Assembly: GCA_946480705.1 (NCBI GenBank)
Contig: CAMLLF010000103.1
Coordinates: forward strand, 1-9,355
Source of the DNA: an uncultured Lysobacteraceae bacterium
GTDB lineage: Bacteria > Pseudomonadota > Gammaproteobacteria > Xanthomonadales > Rhodanobacteraceae
Reading direction: 5' to 3'
DNA length: 9,355 nt
Part shown: positions 1,576 to 7,941 of the stretch, piece by piece
How positions within the stretch are numbered: position 1 is the stretch's first letter
How the letters are laid out: each line of letters starts with the position of its first letter
Notes under the pieces: model-generated
The model's input: only the letters and a program-made list of their open reading frames with translations
The model's database searches: none
What the model was told of the DNA's origin: nothing
Program-made: the position numbers and the translations under genes

Positions 1576-3021
1576 CTATTGTCCCGTGGCGGGCAGATCG
1601 TGCGTGCGTCGATGCGCGCGCCACAGCAGCAATCCGGCGAACGTGCAGATCAACGGCAGCAGCCACGCGCCGTGCGCGGTCATGGCAGCGACGAGCGCGC
1701 GTTGCGCCCGCACGAGCGGCGCCGGTTCGGGTCGCGTGCCGACGCGATCGCCGAGAACGAATCGCACGTCGCTCGCGTCGACGAGCGCGAGCAGGCGCTC
1801 GCGCTGCGGATAGGCCAGCTCGCCGCCCGCCGCACCGGCGAGCGCGCTGCGCTCGCCGGCACGGATGTAGCGTTCGAGCCGCTGCGCCTGGTCGTGCTGC
1901 GCGTCGGCACGCACGCGCGTCCAGTGCCACGCAAACGGCGCGAGCAGCAGCGCAGCGACGATGCTCGCGGCCAGCGCCGCGTGCGCGAGCCGCGGCCATG
2001 GCGGCGCAGTGCCGTGCAGCGAAAGCCGGCACAGGCAGGCGAGATTCGCGAAGCCGCCGAGCGCGAGCACTTCGACATAGCGCGAGATCGGATACCAGAG
2101 CCGGAATTGAGGCCGGCCGAGCAGGATGGCGACGAGCTGCAGCAGCCCCCAGAGCGCGAGACAGGCAAACGCGACGTCCACGCCGTCGCCGCGTCCGCGC
2201 AGCAGGCGCAGGAACGCCAGCCATGTCGGCCACCACAGGACGATCAGCAGCGCGAGTTCGCCGGACTGGCGCGGCCCCCAGACCGTCGTTGCGGACGCCG
2301 CGGGCAGCGCGAAGGCGACGATCGGCGCGATCGCGGCAAGCACTGCGAGCGCCGTGGCCAGCGCCGGGCGCGGGGACAGATCGCCGATATGCCGGCGCAG
2401 CGCGATCGCGAGCAGTGCGACGACGCCGGCGGCCGCGCCCGACCCCATCGAGACGCCGGCTGCGAGCGCACACAGCGCGAGCGGGACGCTGCCGGCGGCC
2501 GTGCGCAGCCGCGCCGCAAGCACGACCGTCCCGGCGCTGAAACCGACGAGGAAGTAGTACGGATTGCCCCAGCCCATCGCGATGTTTTCCCAGCCATAGG
2601 GCAGTACGGCGACGAGACCCGCGGCGAGCGCGAAGGCCGGAGCGTACGCGCCGAGATGACGCGTCGCGGCGGCGATCAGCCAGGCGGCCATCGCGGCGTA
2701 GAGGCACTGGCTGGCCAGGCAGACGCTGACGTTGTCGAACTGGAGGTCCGCGAGGCGCAGCTGCGCGTAGCTCAGCAGCCGCGTCCACAGCAGCAGATGT
2801 TCGTTGTGGAGTTGAAGCAGCGTCGATGCGTCGAAACGGCCGGCGAGCAGCGGCCGCGCCATCAGTTCGATGACGCCGTCCCACTCGTCGTAATACGGCG
2901 TCTCGGGCGCGAACAGCGCGACGAGCATCATGCGCACCGAGGCGATCAGCAGGAACAGGCCGGCGGCGAAAGCGAGGATCGACGTGGACGGCGCGAGGCC
3001 GGCCGGCAGGGGGCGAAGCAT
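1576..3021 (-). CDS. Polytopic membrane protein, GT-C glycosyltransferase-like
   Basis: A 481-residue integral membrane protein with roughly ten or more hydrophobic segments, the first at about residues 12-38 and the last at about 452-468. An acidic motif YYDEWDG (residues 43-49) directly follows the first membrane segment, then LHNEHLLLWTR (71-81) sits in the first large loop, and WYPISRY (309-315) lies between later segments. An acidic first outer loop plus a multi-spanning body is characteristic of GT-C enzymes, which transfer sugars from polyprenyl-phosphate donors; a role in surface-glycan modification is inferred only from this layout. The start at 3021 was chosen because the upstream extension in the same frame is arginine-rich and non-membrane; its ribosome site is weak. 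It stands alone, with no glycan or transport genes beside it. I do not recognise a named family, and substrate is unknown. Confidence 0.8.
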   Translation of the reverse strand: MLRPLPAGLAPSTSILAFAAGLFLLIASVRMMLVALFAPETPYYDEWDGVIELMARPLLAGRFDASTLLQLHNEHLLLWTRLLSYAQLRLADLQFDNVSVCLASQCLYAAMAAWLIAAATRHLGAYAPAFALAAGLVAVLPYGWENIAMGWGNPYYFLVGFSAGTVVLAARLRTAAGSVPLALCALAAGVSMGSGAAAGVVALLAIALRRHIGDLSPRPALATALAVLAAIAPIVAFALPAASATTVWGPRQSGELALLIVLWWPTWLAFLRLLRGRGDGVDVAFACLALWGLLQLVAILLGRPQFRLWYPISRYVEVLALGGFANLACLCRLSLHGTAPPWPRLAHAALAASIVAALLLAPFAWHWTRVRADAQHDQAQRLERYIRAGERSALAGAAGGELAYPQRERLLALVDASDVRFVLGDRVGTRPEPAPLVRAQRALVAAMTAHGAWLLPLICTFAGLLLWRAHRRTHDLPATGQ

Positions 3022-3212
3022 CGGTCGTCGTCTCGGCGATACGGTCGAAGGCCGCAGTATCGCAGCCCGGTACGGCAATTCGCTGCCGCCCGGGCGCGCA
3101 CCGCACGACCGACGCACCCGGTGCGCCGCCTGGTCCGCGCCAATACGCGCGTCCCGCCGTTGTTCGAGCCGCCGGCACATCTGCCGGATCGAGGAGCCCG
3201 CCCACGACCGCC

Positions 3213-3660
3213 CTGCCCTGCAGGTCCCTGACCGCAGCCAACGATGCCGAAGGCTTTACCGCCGACTCTTTCAGCCGATCCGATGCAGCCGTCCGTGCAC
3301 GGCGCTATCGCTGCCTCGGCCAGGTCGCGCATCCGGGCGACGCGCTGATCGCGCAGTTGACCGACGTCGACTTTGTCCACGATGTCGCATTCGTCGCCAT
3401 CGCCGACGGCGACCGCGAGACCGGCGTCGCGCGCTACGGCACGACCGCCGACGGCAGCCGCTGCAAGTGCGGCGGCGGTCGGCGATGCGTTCAGGGCCGC
3501 GGCCTCGGCATGCCGACGCGCTGGCTCATCGAACGGGCGCGCGGGATTCGCGAACTGGTGTCGGTCGACCTCGCCGGCAACACGGCCGGGCGCGCTCGAC
3601 GTCACGCGCTCGCCCGATCCGTCCGGCGCCGCACAGGTCGCGCATCGCCTGAGGCTGTGA
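3213..3660 (+). pseudogene. GNAT-family N-acetyltransferase, broken by several frame disruptions
   Basis: Remains of a GNAT acetyltransferase like those found alone or fused to acyl-CoA synthetases. In one frame (codons starting at multiples of 3) it reads LTAANDAEGF, then ALIAQLTDVDFVHDVAFVAI and GVARYGTTADGSRCK, ending near 3467. The continuation AAAVGDAF is one frame over. The acetyl-CoA loop motif QGRGLG and then LIERARGIRELVSVDLAGNTA are back in the first frame. The C-terminus DVTRSPDPSGAAQVAHRLRL with its stop at 3658-3660 is again in the other frame. The simplest repair needs a lost 2 bp near 3468, a lost base near 3492, and a lost segment of roughly 20 bp near 3597 that removes the LARSLGF-like part. 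No in-frame start codon with a ribosome site was found upstream. The product would have used acetyl-CoA to acetylate a protein or small molecule. It is divergent from the membrane-protein gene. Confidence 0.8.
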
Positions 3661-3694: not shown

Positions 3695-4117
3695 TCAGCG
3701 CACGATCAGCAGCGGCGTGCGGCAGCTCTGCAGCACCTTCGCGACGACGGATCCCAGCAGCAAGTTGCGCAGCACGCCGCGCCCGTGCGAGCCCATGACG
3801 AGCAGGTCGTAGCGGCCGCGCGTCGCCAGGTGCGCGATCAGCTCGGCCGGATCGCCGACCAGGCAATGCTCGGCGAAAGCGATGCCGGTCTTGTGGAGAT
3901 AGCTCCGCGCATAGCGCAGCGCGTCGCGCGCGTTCTCGTCGTGAAACCGCTTCGTATCGGCCTGGCCGAGCGCCGCGGCGACGCGCGGCGTCAGCGGCGG
4001 ATCGACATGGACGAGTTCGAGCGCGGCGTGCGGCGCAAACTGCGCCCAGTGCTTCACGACATGCTTCACGGCGAGGCGGCTGTGGTCGCTTCCATCGACG
4101 GCGAGCAGGATCTTCAT
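3695..4117 (-). CDS. Universal stress protein, UspA family
   Basis: A 140-residue single-domain universal stress protein, the usual length for the family. It opens with MKILLAVDGSDHS, the first strand and the Asp-containing nucleotide loop, and ends with the ATP-binding signature G-x2-G-x9-G-S (G109, G112, G122, S123) in MGSHGRGVLRNLLLGSV, followed by the last strand PLLIVR. The signature is complete, which suggests the ATP-binding subclass. Such proteins are small cytoplasmic dimers that help cells survive stress, starvation or oxygen limitation; the exact partner is unknown. The start at 4117 matches the family N-terminus exactly; longer readings in this frame run into the divergent promoter region. 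It is transcribed away from the two-component operon, with a promoter/operator module at 4165-4227 that closely matches the one in front of the crp/fnr gene, so the two are probably co-regulated. Confidence 0.93.
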   Translation of the reverse strand: MKILLAVDGSDHSRLAVKHVVKHWAQFAPHAALELVHVDPPLTPRVAAALGQADTKRFHDENARDALRYARSYLHKTGIAFAEHCLVGDPAELIAHLATRGRYDLLVMGSHGRGVLRNLLLGSVVAKVLQSCRTPLLIVR

Positions 4118-4164: not shown

Positions 4165-4197
4165 ATCCTAGCGAGGTCCGGAACGGCACCGACCACG
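4165..4197 (-). promoter_or_regulatory. Putative usp promoter with conserved GACCACG element
   Basis: On the minus strand a -10-like TAGGAT (plus strand 4165-4170, 4 of 6 consensus bases) lies downstream of CGTGGTC (plus GACCACG, 4191-4197), which falls about where a -35 element would be. There is no good -35 hexamer, as expected for an activator-dependent promoter. The same GACCACG element, at the same 5-nt distance from a GCAAC/GTAAC array, precedes the crp/fnr gene. Start site and activity are inferred. Confidence 0.5.
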
Positions 4198-4202
4198 CGG
4201 CA

Positions 4203-4227
4203 GCAACGATCGGTAACGGCGTGTAAC
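4203..4227. promoter_or_regulatory. Operator array A: GCAAC-N5-GTAAC-N5-GTAAC
   Basis: Three 5-mers in exact 10-bp phase: GCAAC at 4203-4207, GTAAC at 4213-4217 and 4223-4227. The array lies between divergent usp and the response-regulator operon, about 86 bp upstream of the usp start and 113 bp upstream of the regulator start. Tandem direct repeats in helical phase are typical binding sites of OmpR-family regulators (compare the CpxR GTAAA-N5-GTAAA box). The matching array at 7882-7916 supports function. Confidence 0.72.
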
Positions 4228-4281
4228 GGCCCGAATACCGGGGGAAACGCGGCATGATCGCCCGCGACCCGCGCCTCGCTG

Positions 4282-4309
4282 GTGACGCAGCCGTACGAAA
4301 ACGTATCAT
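4282..4309 (+). promoter_or_regulatory. Putative sigma-70-type promoter of the two-component operon
   Basis: GTGACG (4282-4287, 4 of 6 to TTGACA) and TATCAT (4304-4309, 5 of 6 to TATAAT) are separated by 16 bp. Transcription would start near 4316, leaving a short leader before the ATG at 4340. The small inverted repeat TACG-AAAA-CGTA overlaps the spacer and the -10. This is the best promoter-like match in the 222-bp divergent gap on the plus strand. Confidence 0.5.
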
Positions 4310-4339
4310 GCGTGGACCGCGCGCCGACCCGTCGAAAAA

Positions 4340-5074
4340 ATGGAAATTGAGATACAGCACCTGCTCTGTGTCGACGACGACGACCAGATCCGCGATCTGA
4401 TCGCGCGCTATTTCCGCGGACAGGGTTTCCGCGTGAGCGGCGCGCGCAACGGCGCCGAACTGCGCGAGACGATTGCGCGCGAACCGGTCGATCTCGTGCT
4501 GCTGGATCTCGGCCTGCCCGGCGAGGACGGCCTCGCGCTGACGCGCCACCTGCGCGAACACTGGCGTGGCGCGGTCATCATCGTCACCGGCCGCGGCGAT
4601 TCCGTCGACCGTGTCGTCGGACTCGAACTCGGCGCCGACGACTACGTGACCAAACCGTTCGATCTGCGCGAGCTGCTCGCGCGCGTACGCAGCGTGCTGC
4701 GCCGCAGCGGCTCCGCCGCGGCACCGGCGTCCGGCTCTGTTCCTGCCGCGCGCTCGCGCCTGGGTTTTGCGGGCTTCGTGCTCGATCTCGCGACGCGCAG
4801 CCTGTTCGATCGCGACGGCAATCCGGTCGCGCTGACCAGCGGCGAGTTCGACCTGCTACTCGCGTTCGTCGAACGGCCCAACCGCGTGCTGTCGCGCGAC
4901 ACGCTGATGAACAGCCTGCATGGGCGCGAAGCCGGTCCCTACGACCGCGCGATCGACATGCAGATCGGCCGGCTGCGCCGCAAGATCGAAACCGCTCCGG
5001 AACAGCCGGCGCTGATCAAGGCCGTGCGCGGAGCGGGCTATCTGTTTGCCGCTTCCGTGGAGCCCGTCGCGTGA
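4340..5074 (+). CDS. OmpR/PhoB-family response regulator
   Basis: A 244-residue DNA-binding response regulator of normal length. The receiver domain (about residues 6-118) has the acidic pocket D12/D13, the phospho-acceptor D56 in LVLLDLGLPGEDG, T83 in IIVTGRGD and K105 in DYVTKPFD, so all catalytic residues are present. A linker of about 20 residues rich in Ala, Ser and Pro leads to a winged-helix effector domain (about 140-238) with the family landmarks LTSGEFDLLLAFVERPNRVLSRDTL and the C-terminal hairpin IKAVRGAGYLF. The start at 4340 follows an A-rich stretch without a clear ribosome site. The stop overlaps the GTG start of the kinase, so the two are almost certainly translated together and form a pair. 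It probably binds tandem direct repeats; arrays A and B in this window are candidate targets. Regulon and signal cannot be named from sequence. Confidence 0.93.
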   Translation: MEIEIQHLLCVDDDDQIRDLIARYFRGQGFRVSGARNGAELRETIAREPVDLVLLDLGLPGEDGLALTRHLREHWRGAVIIVTGRGDSVDRVVGLELGADDYVTKPFDLRELLARVRSVLRRSGSAAAPASGSVPAARSRLGFAGFVLDLATRSLFDRDGNPVALTSGEFDLLLAFVERPNRVLSRDTLMNSLHGREAGPYDRAIDMQIGRLRRKIETAPEQPALIKAVRGAGYLFAASVEPVA

Positions 5075-7083
5075 CGGGCCGGGAGACCGTGTCCGGCGAT
5101 CTGTATCGCGCGCTGTTCGACACGGCGCCCGACGCGATGGTCGTCGTCGCGATCGACGGACGCATCCGGCTCGCCAATCCGCAGGCGACGCGCCTGTTCG
5201 GCTACACCGAAGACGAACTGATAGGCCAGCCGGTCGAGCTGCTGATGCCGGAATCCGTGCGCGCCGCGCACCACGGCTATCGCGACGGCTATATGCAGCG
5301 GCCGCGCGTCAGGCCCATGGGCGCCGGGCAGGAACTCGTCGGCCGCCGCGCCGACGGCGTGCAGTTTCCGGTCGAGATCGCGCTGAGTCCGATCGCGGCC
5401 GGCACGGAAACACTGTTCGCCGCGTCGATCCGCGATATTTCGGAAACGCGACGTCAGCGCCAGGCGCTGCGGCGTGCGCGCTTCGACGCCTGCGTCGCGC
5501 GCATCGGCCAGCTCGCGCTCGAAGCGCGCGACGTCGACGCGTTCGCCGAACAGGTCAGCGCGCTCGTGCTCGATGCGATGCGCGCGGTCGCGGCCGGCAT
5601 CGCGCTGATGCGTTCGCCGCGCGACCAGACCTTGAACTCCGCGGTCGGTCCCGGCGCCGATCGCGATCTCGTCGAGCAGTTGTTCGCCGCGCTCGACGTC
5701 GCCGACGCGACGACGCTGGCGCAGCCGCCGTTCGACCTCGACGCCTGGCTGCAGTCGCCCGAGCGACGCGAGGACTGGCAGCACGCCGGCATCGGCGGCG
5801 GCCGCATCGTGCCGGTGCTCGATCACGCGCGTCCGCTCGGCGTGCTCGTCGTGCTGACGACGGCGCCCCTCGGCGACGACCGCGACGCGGCGCATTTCCT
5901 CGGTGTCGTCGCGAACGTGCTGACGACGGCCGCGTTGCGCCAGCACACGCAGGAACAGCTCGCCCACTCGCTGCGCCTCGAGGCCGTCGGCCAGCTGACC
6001 GGCGGCATCGCGCACGATTTCAACAATCTGCTGACCGTGATCTCCGGCAACCTGCAGCTGCTCGAGGCCGACTATGCCGAGGATCCGAATGCCGCCGATT
6101 CGATCGCCGGCGCGCTGCGCGCAGTCGGCCGCGGCGCCGAACTCACGCGCAAGCTGCTCGCGTTCGCGCGGCGCCAGCGACTGAGCCCGGCTGCGGTCGC
6201 GCCCGCGGCGCTGCTCGGCGAACTCGGTCGCATGCTCGAACGCACGCTCGGCGAAGCCGTGCAGGTCCGGCTGGACTGCGCACCTGATCTGCCGCCGGTC
6301 TACGCGGATGCGGCACAGCTGGAGAGCGCGCTGCTGAATCTCGCGCTGAACGCGCGCGACGCGATGCCGCGCGGCGGGCGGCTCACGATCGCAGCAGGCG
6401 AACTGACGATCGCGCCGGACTCCGAAGAGATCGAACTGCCGGACGGCCGCTATATCCGCTTCACCGTGACCGACACCGGGCTCGGCATGCCGCCCGAGGT
6501 GCTCGCGCGCGCGTTCGAACCGTTCTTCACGACCAAGGAAGCCGGCAAAGGCAGCGGCCTCGGACTCAGCATGGTCTACGGCTTCGTCAAGCAGTCCGGC
6601 GGGCATCTCGACGCGCGCAGCCAGCTCGGCTACGGCACGCAGATCGATCTCATACTGCCGGTCGCGATGCAGGCCGCAGCGGCGGCCGGCCGCGCACGTC
6701 CGGCGAATCTGCCGCGCGGGAGCGGTACCGTGCTCGTCGTGGAAGACGAACCCGAAGTGCGCGGACTCGCGGTCGCATTCCTGCGCGGGCTTGGCTACGA
6801 CGTGCTCGAAGCGGCCGACGCCGAGGAAGCGCTGACGCGGCTGCGCGCGGCGGAACCGATCGCACTGTTGTTCAGCGACGTCGTGCTCGGCAGCGGCGAC
6901 AACGGCATCGAGCTCGCGCAGAAGGCACGGGCGTTGCGCCCGGGCCTGCCCGTGCTGCTCGCGTCGGGCTATGAATTCGGCGGCGCGGCCACGCCACACG
7001 GCTTTCCGCTGCTGCCCAAGCCCTATCGCCGCGAGGAACTCGCGGCGGCGGCGCAGGCCGCGCTGCGCGGCGAGCGCGGTTGA
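5071..7083 (+). CDS. Soluble hybrid histidine kinase, PAS-GAF-HisKA-HATPase-REC
   Basis: A 670-residue sensor kinase with no membrane segment or signal peptide, so a cytoplasmic sensor. Domains in order: PAS (about 10-128, with the ending ASIRDISETRRQ), a divergent GAF-like domain (about 135-290), phospho-acceptor helix with H315 in GGIAHDFNNLL (the NtrB/HPK4-like type), ATPase domain with N box N427, DTGLGM (468-473) and GKGSGLGLS (492-500), then a C-terminal receiver (about 553-665) with E558/D559, D603 and K650. All phosphotransfer residues are present. The PAS region resembles FixL around VRAAHHGYRDGY, where H67 aligns with the heme-ligand histidine of FixL. The GTG start at 5071 overlaps the regulator's stop (GTGA), indicating translational coupling. 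No Hpt domain is encoded here, so the C-terminal receiver may modulate the kinase or act as a phosphate sink. A redox, oxygen or energy signal is inferred from neighbours. Confidence 0.93.
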   Translation: MTGRETVSGDLYRALFDTAPDAMVVVAIDGRIRLANPQATRLFGYTEDELIGQPVELLMPESVRAAHHGYRDGYMQRPRVRPMGAGQELVGRRADGVQFPVEIALSPIAAGTETLFAASIRDISETRRQRQALRRARFDACVARIGQLALEARDVDAFAEQVSALVLDAMRAVAAGIALMRSPRDQTLNSAVGPGADRDLVEQLFAALDVADATTLAQPPFDLDAWLQSPERREDWQHAGIGGGRIVPVLDHARPLGVLVVLTTAPLGDDRDAAHFLGVVANVLTTAALRQHTQEQLAHSLRLEAVGQLTGGIAHDFNNLLTVISGNLQLLEADYAEDPNAADSIAGALRAVGRGAELTRKLLAFARRQRLSPAAVAPAALLGELGRMLERTLGEAVQVRLDCAPDLPPVYADAAQLESALLNLALNARDAMPRGGRLTIAAGELTIAPDSEEIELPDGRYIRFTVTDTGLGMPPEVLARAFEPFFTTKEAGKGSGLGLSMVYGFVKQSGGHLDARSQLGYGTQIDLILPVAMQAAAAAGRARPANLPRGSGTVLVVEDEPEVRGLAVAFLRGLGYDVLEAADAEEALTRLRAAEPIALLFSDVVLGSGDNGIELAQKARALRPGLPVLLASGYEFGGAATPHGFPLLPKPYRREELAAAAQAALRGERG

Positions 7084-7086
7084 GGT

Positions 7087-7806
7087 TCACGCGGCGCAGC
7101 GCGCCGGTTCGTCGCCTTCTGCACACTGCTGCAGATCGTCCGGCGACAGCACGCGGATTTCGCGCCGCTCGACCGCGATGACGCCGCGCGCGGCGAGCTG
7201 CGACAGCGCGCGCGTGACGGTTTCGTGCTTGATGCCGAGGAAGCTCGCGATGTCGACGCGACTCATGCGCAGCAGGAAATGGCAGGCCGAAAAGCCGAGC
7301 GCGCGATGGCGCCGCGACAGGTCGAGCAGGAACGCCGCGACACGCTGTTCGGCCGTCAGCGTGCCGAGCGTCAGCATCCAGTAGTGATCGCGGCGCAACT
7401 CGAGCGCAAGCGAGCGAGTCACCAGGGCCTGGAGCGAGGCCATGGCCGCGCAGGCGGCCATCACGGCCGGATACGGCAGTTCGAGCACTTCGCAGGCATC
7501 GAGCGCGACGATATCGACGGTGTGCGTGTCGCTGCCGATGGCTTCCACGCCGAGCAGGTCGCCGCGCATCGGGAACCCGGTGACCTGCTGGCGGCCGTCG
7601 CTGCTCGACACGCTCGCACGCAGGAAGCCGGCGTGGACGAGATACAGCGCATTGAATCGCTGCCCGGCGCGATACAGGTGCTCGCCCGCGCGCAGGCGGC
7701 GTCGCGTGACCGGCACATAGGTCGACAGCGTCGCGATGTCGATCAGTTCGTCGACGCCGCGCAGTGGCGGCAGCGGCAGGGAGTGCACGGCGGCGGTCGT
7801 GGTCAT
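7087..7806 (-). CDS. Crp/Fnr-family transcriptional regulator lacking N-terminal Fe-S cysteines
   Basis: A 239-residue regulator of normal family length. The N-terminal cyclic-nucleotide-binding-like beta-roll spans about residues 20-135, with the FNR-type stretch GDLLGVEAIGSDTH (82-95). A long dimer helix follows, then a winged helix-turn-helix: MSRVDIASFLGIKHETVTRALSQLAARGVI-like region at 181-210. The recognition helix carries E195, T198 and R199, corresponding to FNR E209, S212 and R213, so a TTGA-type half-site is expected. FNR's N-terminal cysteine cluster is absent: the only cysteines are C105, C119, C175, C228 and C237. It therefore resembles FixK/DNR-like members that are controlled by expression or another ligand. 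The start at 7806 was chosen because upstream codons in this frame run through the promoter and operator. It converges on the kinase gene with a 3-bp gap and is preceded by array B. Confidence 0.92.
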   Translation of the reverse strand: MTTTAAVHSLPLPPLRGVDELIDIATLSTYVPVTRRRLRAGEHLYRAGQRFNALYLVHAGFLRASVSSSDGRQQVTGFPMRGDLLGVEAIGSDTHTVDIVALDACEVLELPYPAVMAACAAMASLQALVTRSLALELRRDHYWMLTLGTLTAEQRVAAFLLDLSRRHRALGFSACHFLLRMSRVDIASFLGIKHETVTRALSQLAARGVIAVERREIRVLSPDDLQQCAEGDEPARCAA

Positions 7807-7842
7807 GGCGGTTTCACTCGGCAGGGTTGCGGCGACGGCTGC

Positions 7843-7876
7843 ACGGTAGCGAGCGAGCCGCTGCTGCTTGACCACG
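7843..7876 (-). promoter_or_regulatory. Putative crp/fnr promoter with conserved GACCACG element
   Basis: On the minus strand CGTGGTC (plus GACCACG, 7870-7876) is followed by CTCGCTACCGT, whose TACCGT (plus 7843-7848) is a poor -10-like match. Spacing from GACCACG to this hexamer differs by only one base from the usp promoter, and CTCGCTA is shared between the two. The absence of good hexamers fits an activator-dependent promoter. Evidence rests mainly on the match to the usp upstream region. Confidence 0.42.
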
Positions 7877-7881
7877 TCCGC

Positions 7882-7916
7882 GCAACGGTCGGTAACGATG
7901 CGTAACTGCCGGTAAC
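7882..7916. promoter_or_regulatory. Operator array B: GCAAC-N5-GTAAC-N5-GTAAC-N5-GTAAC
   Basis: Four 5-mers in perfect 10-bp phase: GCAAC at 7882-7886 and GTAAC at 7892-7896, 7902-7906 and 7912-7916. The first three units match array A in order and orientation, with extra agreement in the spacers (GCAACGRTCGGTAAC in both). The array is about 76 bp upstream of the crp/fnr start on the minus strand and 60 bp upstream of the RNR-like gene on the plus strand, so it could serve both. Confidence 0.75.
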
Positions 7917-7927
7917 CCGAGCGGGAA

Positions 7928-7941
7928 TTGACCTGCCTCAA
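7928..7941. promoter_or_regulatory. FNR/ANR-type dyad TTGAC-N4-CTCAA
   Basis: TTGACCTGCCTCAA preserves the TTGA and TCAA halves of the FNR consensus TTGAT-N4-ATCAA at the correct 14-bp length. Its centre lies 41.5 bp before the ATG of the RNR-like gene, the classic distance from an FNR-activated transcription start, so transcription could begin at or close to that ATG. It may be a target of the adjacent Crp/Fnr protein or of another FNR-family regulator. Relative to the crp/fnr gene it lies beyond array B. Confidence 0.6.

Follow-up and report, generated by a model that had tools for sequence, protein, structure and literature searches.

Phased GTTAC arrays resembling the rhizobial K-box at crp/fnr and usp promoters in Lysobacterales

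The locus and its two promoter arrays

The window analysed here is the whole 9355-base stretch of contig CAMLLF010000103.1 (assembly GCA_946480705.1, uncultured Lysobacteraceae bacterium). Its genes follow the order cydA, a 534-residue frame, usp, an OmpR-type response regulator, a hybrid kinase, crp/fnr, a gene whose product resembles the barrel of ribonucleotide reductase (RNR) and tRNA-Lys (Table 1). By its sequence the window appears Tahibacter-like; its Crp/Fnr protein is identical over its full length to a protein named Tahibacter sp. (metagenome-assembled genome, MAG). The usp and crp/fnr promoters, which flank the regulator and kinase genes, carry matching arrays of phased GTTAC units. 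Sequence comparison suggests that this operator is a gammaproteobacterial form of the rhizobial low-oxygen K-box switch.

Read on the plus strand, GYAAC-N5-GTAAC occurs five times in the window (4203, 4213, 7882, 7892 and 7902), against 0.01 expected from 200 dinucleotide shuffles, and all five occurrences fall within the two modules. The composite frame GACCACG-N5-GCAAC-N5-GTAAC-N5-GTAAC, with up to three mismatches permitted, is found exactly twice (4191–4227 and 7870–7906), with none expected, and chance similarity of the two modules was rejected on this count. Both frames are exact and carry the N5 spacing, and the crp/fnr module has an extra fourth GTAAC unit at 7912–7916. The spacers of the two modules are unlike, with units and phase retained. 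These observations bear out the initial annotation, which had described the same architecture at both promoters, a 10-bp phase with an identical GACCACG-to-GCAAC distance, a fourth unit in the second module and no further array in the window.

Since usp and crp/fnr both lie on the minus strand, the array is described here in the direction of these genes, as GTTAC-N5-GTTAC-N5-GTTGC-N5-CGTGGTC followed by the -10 hexamer, with one more GTTAC in front at crp/fnr. The gap between CGTGGTC and the -10 hexamer, with positions counted by hand, is 20 bp at usp (TAGGAT) and 21 bp at crp/fnr (TACCGT), in agreement with the roughly 21 bp originally noted. CGTGG keeps the 10-bp phase of the GTTRC units and is located at the place of the -35 hexamer; therefore, the array overlaps the -35 position instead of ending upstream of it. 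The activator-like placement proposed earlier is supported by the fixed offset to a conserved -10, but the location just upstream of the -35 region does not hold. A consensus sigma-70 -35/-10 pair was considered for both array promoters and rejected, as none was found at either usp or crp/fnr; this is as expected of activator-dependent promoters. One plus-strand match to the sigma-70 consensus (4282–4309) lies ahead of the regulator gene.

The layout recurs in relatives. An alignment of 46 distinct exact-array sites (44 before crp and three near usp, minus one duplicate, with three sites found elsewhere left out) displays phased units and A-rich spacers, then a fourth unit that is in phase but weaker (consensus GACGTC, offsets 31–36), and a sharp TAnnnT at offsets 57–62, which is the -10 hexamer. 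The weight-matrix scores of the window arrays are 38.7 for usp and 37.4 for crp/fnr, the best background score being 13.1 in five shuffles of non-overlapping base pairs (230 kb, one strand).

Conservation of the array and of its regulator

Within a sample of 398 Lysobacterales genomes, which represents part of the order, GTTACN5GTTACN5GTTRC gave 50 matches in 45 genomes, compared to 11 for the reversed control. A crp/fnr orthologue follows 44 of these arrays, gene sets with a Usp gene follow three (G020, G299 and G336), and the remaining three lie elsewhere (G336 contig 2, G163 and G294). In G020, G299 and G336, two sites are positioned 3.6–3.7 kb apart with the regulator and kinase in between, as in the window. 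The Usp gene comes first in G020 and is the first long frame in G336; in G299 it comes second, behind a gene that has no Pfam match and directly follows the array. The initial annotation had named conservation of the motif at both genes in relatives as its test: the crp/fnr site is conserved, but the usp site was seen only in the Tahibacter-like clade. With arrays near Usp genes in three genomes only, usp was rejected as the ancestral target. A Pfam-less gene in the usp-side K-box transcription unit was observed in two Tahibacter-like genomes (L119 5404–6108 and L121 10391–11014; 43% identical).

The window regulator is present in 61 of the 398 genomes (E 7.4e-72 or better; 55–83% identity), which, as inferred from named proteins, comprise Tahibacter, Frateuria, Rhodanobacter, Dyella and Rudaea. 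All 61 have the array before crp/fnr, even where the crp/fnr gene has been relocated. The array is exact in 42 of them, while 17 more have a weight-matrix match of 17.8–44.1 before crp, and the last two score 36.5 (G295, crp 17 kb off) and 21.4 (G081, crp on another contig). This co-occurrence supports the OmpR-type regulator encoded between the arrays as their likely binder, as had been proposed. Orthologues of crp/fnr with 47% identity or more occur in 57 genomes, all within the 61 except G392, in which the contig stops inside the kinase gene. Four clusters below the regulator threshold (G074, G254, G285 and G038) have an exact two-unit box before crp; G038 scores 12.7, which is under the shuffle best, yet its pair is exact. 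G268 (L133, L134) harbours two crp/fnr paralogues, each with its own K-box.

When the spacing was left free in 61 distinct crp upstream regions, 76 GTTAC pairs were 10 bp apart, 16 were 20 bp apart and two were 11 bp apart, and no GTTAC pairs were found on the opposite strand of these regions. In 18 crp regions picked without the exact pattern, 10 bp was the distance in 17 of 21 pairs.

A one-mismatch scan for three-unit sites covered 24 genomes selected for having an exact array, 23 of them among the 61. It returned 29 exact matches and three with a single mismatch, 32 in all, where the reversed control gave 14; a large regulon of three-unit sites was rejected. As the scan added only three sites, the three-unit operator is nearly unique per genome, located at crp in all and also at usp in Tahibacter-like genomes. 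The small regulon suspected at the outset is thus supported for three-unit sites.

Relation to FxkR, the Crp/Fnr protein and its anaeroboxes

In R. etli and R. leguminosarum, FxkR binds the K-box GTTACA-N4-GTTACA before fixK, a result of Zamorano-Sanchez 2012 as given in the consulted parts of PMC7888657 and PMC4999443. We compared the window with pRL9 of strain 3841, where the coordinates agree with fxkR9, fixK9a, fixK9b and hfixL9 in the consulted part of PMC7888657, and with a second cluster from another R. leguminosarum strain. FxkR9 and the window regulator share 49.6% identity over 236 residues, and the best match of FxkR9 is the window-type regulator in all five Lysobacterales genomes tested. 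In a tree of 113 regulators (103 different), rhizobial FxkR is sister to regulators sitting with Crp and/or the kinase (94/77). The window kinase shares 37% identity over 665 residues with the kinase of the second cluster and 46% over 392 residues with hFixL9. On the pRL9 stretch, the two top scores of a weight matrix made from Lysobacterales only, 25.2 and 24.5, fall on the two fixK K-boxes. Both boxes have the same core as the relative G153, GTTACAAACTGTTAC, and by eye they carry further degenerate in-phase units. From these comparisons, the window regulator is likely an FxkR orthologue. The initial annotation had considered the regulon possibly undescribed; this did not hold, as the operator is in kind the rhizobial K-box of FxkR, and what appears to be new is its gammaproteobacterial occurrence.

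The R. leguminosarum pRL23b5 stretch (L166 1–12300) contains an FxkR-FixK-hFixL-like cluster next to genes for usp, Hsp20, BON, acetate kinase and alcohol dehydrogenase, and resembles a low-oxygen stress island. A class-level search of 321 genomes gave regulator matches of 46–55% identity in 23 genomes, and crp was not seen within the approximately 3.7 kb examined at these loci, 6 of 24 of which contain K-box-like pairs. Among the contig matches listed, the 80 or more relatives are mostly distant OmpR paralogues. An exact GTTAC-N5-GTTAC pair is present in one of 65 distant loci. The GTTAC half-site marks a wider subfamily of OmpR-type regulators.

An N-terminal CxxC motif is absent from 63 of the 66 Crp sequences examined, the window included. 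Three deep branches with the same K-box (L186, L216 and L231) have a Crp/Fnr with N-terminal CxxC, a possible FNR-to-FixK intermediate. Anaeroboxes (TTGA-N6-TCAA) are enriched around these loci, as 17 loci hold 47 of them where shuffles give 0.5, and a second locus set holds 69 where shuffles give 1.2; the control here is shuffled sequence of the loci, not other regions of the same genomes. Three crp-less loci have none. Ahead of the RNR-like gene, 15 of 17 loci have a box at -28 to -42. For usp the count is 8 of 13 loci, with nine boxes at -63 to -141, and for crp it is 22 of 34, some of them the same intergenic boxes. A box lies before cydA in 2 of 5 loci and before the regulator gene in 6 of 33, but before the kinase gene in none of 33; among 7800 random pieces drawn from these loci, 432 have one. 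The window holds a single exact anaerobox (7928–7941), with none before usp or cydA. Judging from the positions of these boxes, usp is probably controlled through Crp in many relatives, while direct control by the K-box regulator is possible in the Tahibacter-like clade.

The RNR-like protein resembles ribonucleotide reductase large subunits in the barrel part only (PF02867) and scores far under the NCBIfam cut-offs; in many relatives, its gene is divergent from crp/fnr. Between the membrane-protein-like frame and usp, plus-strand positions 3232–3660 resemble, by eye only, remnants of an acetyltransferase-type gene split over frames.

Table 1. Genes and promoter elements of the window, with the units of the two arrays given in gene direction.
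Feature	Position	Strand	Basis or remark
cydA		minus	truncated at window edge; Pfam
534-residue frame	1579–3180	minus	membrane-protein-like by eye; no Pfam or NCBIfam match
usp, universal stress protein	3698–4117	minus	PF00582
-10 hexamer TAGGAT, usp promoter	4165–4170	minus	offset 57 from first GTTAC, matching relatives
K-box array 1, usp promoter	4191–4227	minus	GTTAC 4227–4223, GTTAC 4217–4213, GTTGC 4207–4203
K-box array 1, degenerate in-phase unit inside CGTGGTC	4197–4191	minus	
OmpR-type response regulator, FxkR-like	4340–5074	plus	receiver and Trans_reg_C; proposed binder of both arrays
Hybrid kinase PAS-HisKA-HATPase-receiver, hFixL-like	5071–7083	plus	Pfam; comparison with FixL structures
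crp/fnr	7087–7806	minus	FixK-like: no N-terminal cysteine cluster; recognition helix HETVTR
-10 hexamer TACCGT, crp/fnr promoter	7843–7848	minus	offset 58 from unit at 7906
K-box array 2, crp/fnr promoter	7870–7916	minus	GTTAC 7916–7912, 7906–7902 and 7896–7892, GTTGC 7886–7882, CGTGGTC 7876–7870
Anaerobox-like palindrome TTGA-CCTGCC-TCAA, FNR/FixK type	7928–7941		between crp/fnr and RNR-like gene; centre about 41 bp 5' of RNR-like start
RNR-barrel-like protein, 342 residues	7976–9004	plus	divergent from crp/fnr; possible Crp/Fnr target
tRNA-Lys		minus	last in window order

A proposed cascade, its alternatives and known systems

From sequence comparison, we consider it very probable that a FixL-like PAS kinase phosphorylates the regulator, which would then activate crp/fnr, and here also usp, through extended K-boxes. 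A low-oxygen or redox cue would lead the hFixL-like PAS kinase to phosphorylate the FxkR-like regulator, and the phosphorylated form would bind the extended K-boxes, in which GTTAC half-sites recur every 10 bp along one face of the DNA. Regulator dimers would cover the phased units as far as the -35 position and bring in RNA polymerase, with the -10 hexamer fixed about 20 bp beyond. Expression of the cysteine-less Crp/Fnr would rise, giving it the role of FixK, and its product would control further genes through anaeroboxes as a second tier. In Tahibacter-like genomes, usp and possibly the regulator's own divergent gene would be driven directly by the regulator as well.

Several points weigh against this cascade and its link to FxkR. 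The support of 94/77 for grouping FxkR with the clade of the window regulator is short of the mark for strong support. Other OmpR-type regulators also have exact GTTAC-N5-GTTAC pairs close by, in 6 of 24 loci (L238, L243, L247, L250, L252 and L254) and at L215, L220 and L221 of a set of 20 loci, among which L216 is a member; the half-site is for this reason not diagnostic of FxkR. The betaproteobacterial loci L001 and L002 have the regulator and the kinase but no K-box in the stretch examined. The window Crp/Fnr is 27–31% identical to three rhizobial FixK proteins, and its NCBIfam score is higher for Fnr (128 bits) than for Caulobacter FixK (74), both below cut-off. The regulator identity threshold behind the 61 genomes was chosen once the hit list had been seen, and the initial array set came from a pattern with the 10-bp spacing built in. 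Furthermore, the co-occurrence of regulator and array is weaker than its count, because linked genes are inherited together, and unlinked cases are few (G295, G290, G081, G038 and the second crp of G268). As to the signal, the heme PAS domain of FixL binds heme through a proximal His and has a distal Arg; in the column of the latter, the window kinase has Gln, and one of 33 kinases has Arg, though a nearby gap makes this column less sure.

The mostly missing distal Arg, together with a PAS-to-HisKA region of the window kinase that has no Pfam match, would accord with a cue other than oxygen, such as redox state, nitric oxide (NO), light or a metabolite. We regard such a cue as possible but less likely than not: among solved structures, the window PAS domain finds its best matches in FixL heme domains (E 2.3e-23), all 33 kinases examined have His at the position of the FixL heme His, cydA lies in the window, and anaeroboxes are enriched around these loci. 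A different OmpR-family regulator, for instance an OmpR/TorR-like paralogue, could bind the arrays in place of the adjacent one. NCBIfam places the window regulator nearest to the OmpR and TorR models, although under their cut-offs, and GTTAC pairs near related paralogues reflect a half-site common to the wider subfamily. A different binder is nevertheless quite improbable in view of the array before crp in every genome carrying the adjacent-type regulator and of the consistent best match of FxkR9 to that type. Moreover, only 3 of the 45 exact-array genomes have no regulator at that level (G392, G163 and G294); the contig of G392 ends in the kinase gene, and the matches in G163 and G294 are not near crp.

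The array could also repress, with dimers over the -35 position blocking RNA polymerase at crp and usp. The overlap of the last unit with this position would fit, and for the R. leguminosarum K-box at +6 of fxkR9, the consulted part of PMC7888657 carries the authors' suggestion that it represses fxkR9. Repression appears unlikely, since a conserved -10 follows the array and no consensus -35/-10 pair accompanies it, the layout of an activator replacing the -35, and since induction of fixK is the role ascribed to the K-boxes before this gene in rhizobia (PMC7888657, part consulted). That the match of the modules is due to chance or to a recent functionless duplication would suit a window with two modules only, but its probability is negligible, given the zero expected in shuffles, the retention before crp in 61 genomes and the spacers that differ while units and phase persist.

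We see about equal chances for and against FxkR/K-box being not a rhizobial invention but an older or cross-class oxygen module, with a near-unique three-unit operator, an FNR-family target that lost its iron-sulphur cysteines and a usp shortcut added in Tahibacter. The loss of the cysteines is proposed because deep-branching carriers keep a CxxC-type Crp/Fnr under the same K-box. Such phylogenetic reach would revise the view, found in the consulted part of PMC4999443, that the cascade originated in a Rhizobiaceae ancestor. It would extend a module known from legume symbiosis to gammaproteobacteria and would provide an operator, a regulator and targets on which low-oxygen control can be tested in Lysobacterales, for which no such cascade was found in open-licence literature. 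The near-unique three-unit operator per genome would keep the cascade simple enough for dissection. A description of an FxkR/K-box cascade outside Rhizobiales was not found in the literature consulted, which was chiefly open-licence and partly covered by titles and abstract openings; on GTAAC direct repeats, nothing relevant appeared by title.

In the OmpR family, the CpxR, PhoP and Pho boxes likewise consist of half-sites in tandem, spaced by one helical turn and lying close to the -35 or across it. The window differs from these in its half-site and gene context. FixJ belongs to the NarL/FixJ type; its site is palindromic (PMC4999443). As proposed for the window, the FixLJ-FixK system has an oxygen-type PAS kinase driving a cysteine-less FNR-family regulator, whereas the window combines an OmpR-type regulator with direct repeats; membership in the FixLJ group through a NarL/FixJ-type regulator was rejected, as the window regulator has Trans_reg_C. 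The hFixL-FxkR-FixK system likewise clusters an OmpR-type regulator, a hybrid PAS kinase and a cysteine-less FNR-family gene, places 10-bp-spaced GTTAC units before the fixK-type gene and, as proposed here, has an anaerobox second tier. Compared to the rhizobial K-box, the window group is gammaproteobacterial, and its units are more numerous and better, ending in GTTGC and CGTCGTC or CGTGGTC. The window kinase has one PAS domain, while both hFixL proteins examined have two. Relative to the rhizobial cascade, the FixL distal Arg is mostly absent here, usp is a putative extra target, and cydA is nearby in place of the fixNOQP oxidase. Lastly, the window promoter is seemingly about 8 bp nearer to the box than on pRL9, by a hand reckoning from the start sites in the consulted part of PMC7888657 that assumes a start 7 nt after the -10.

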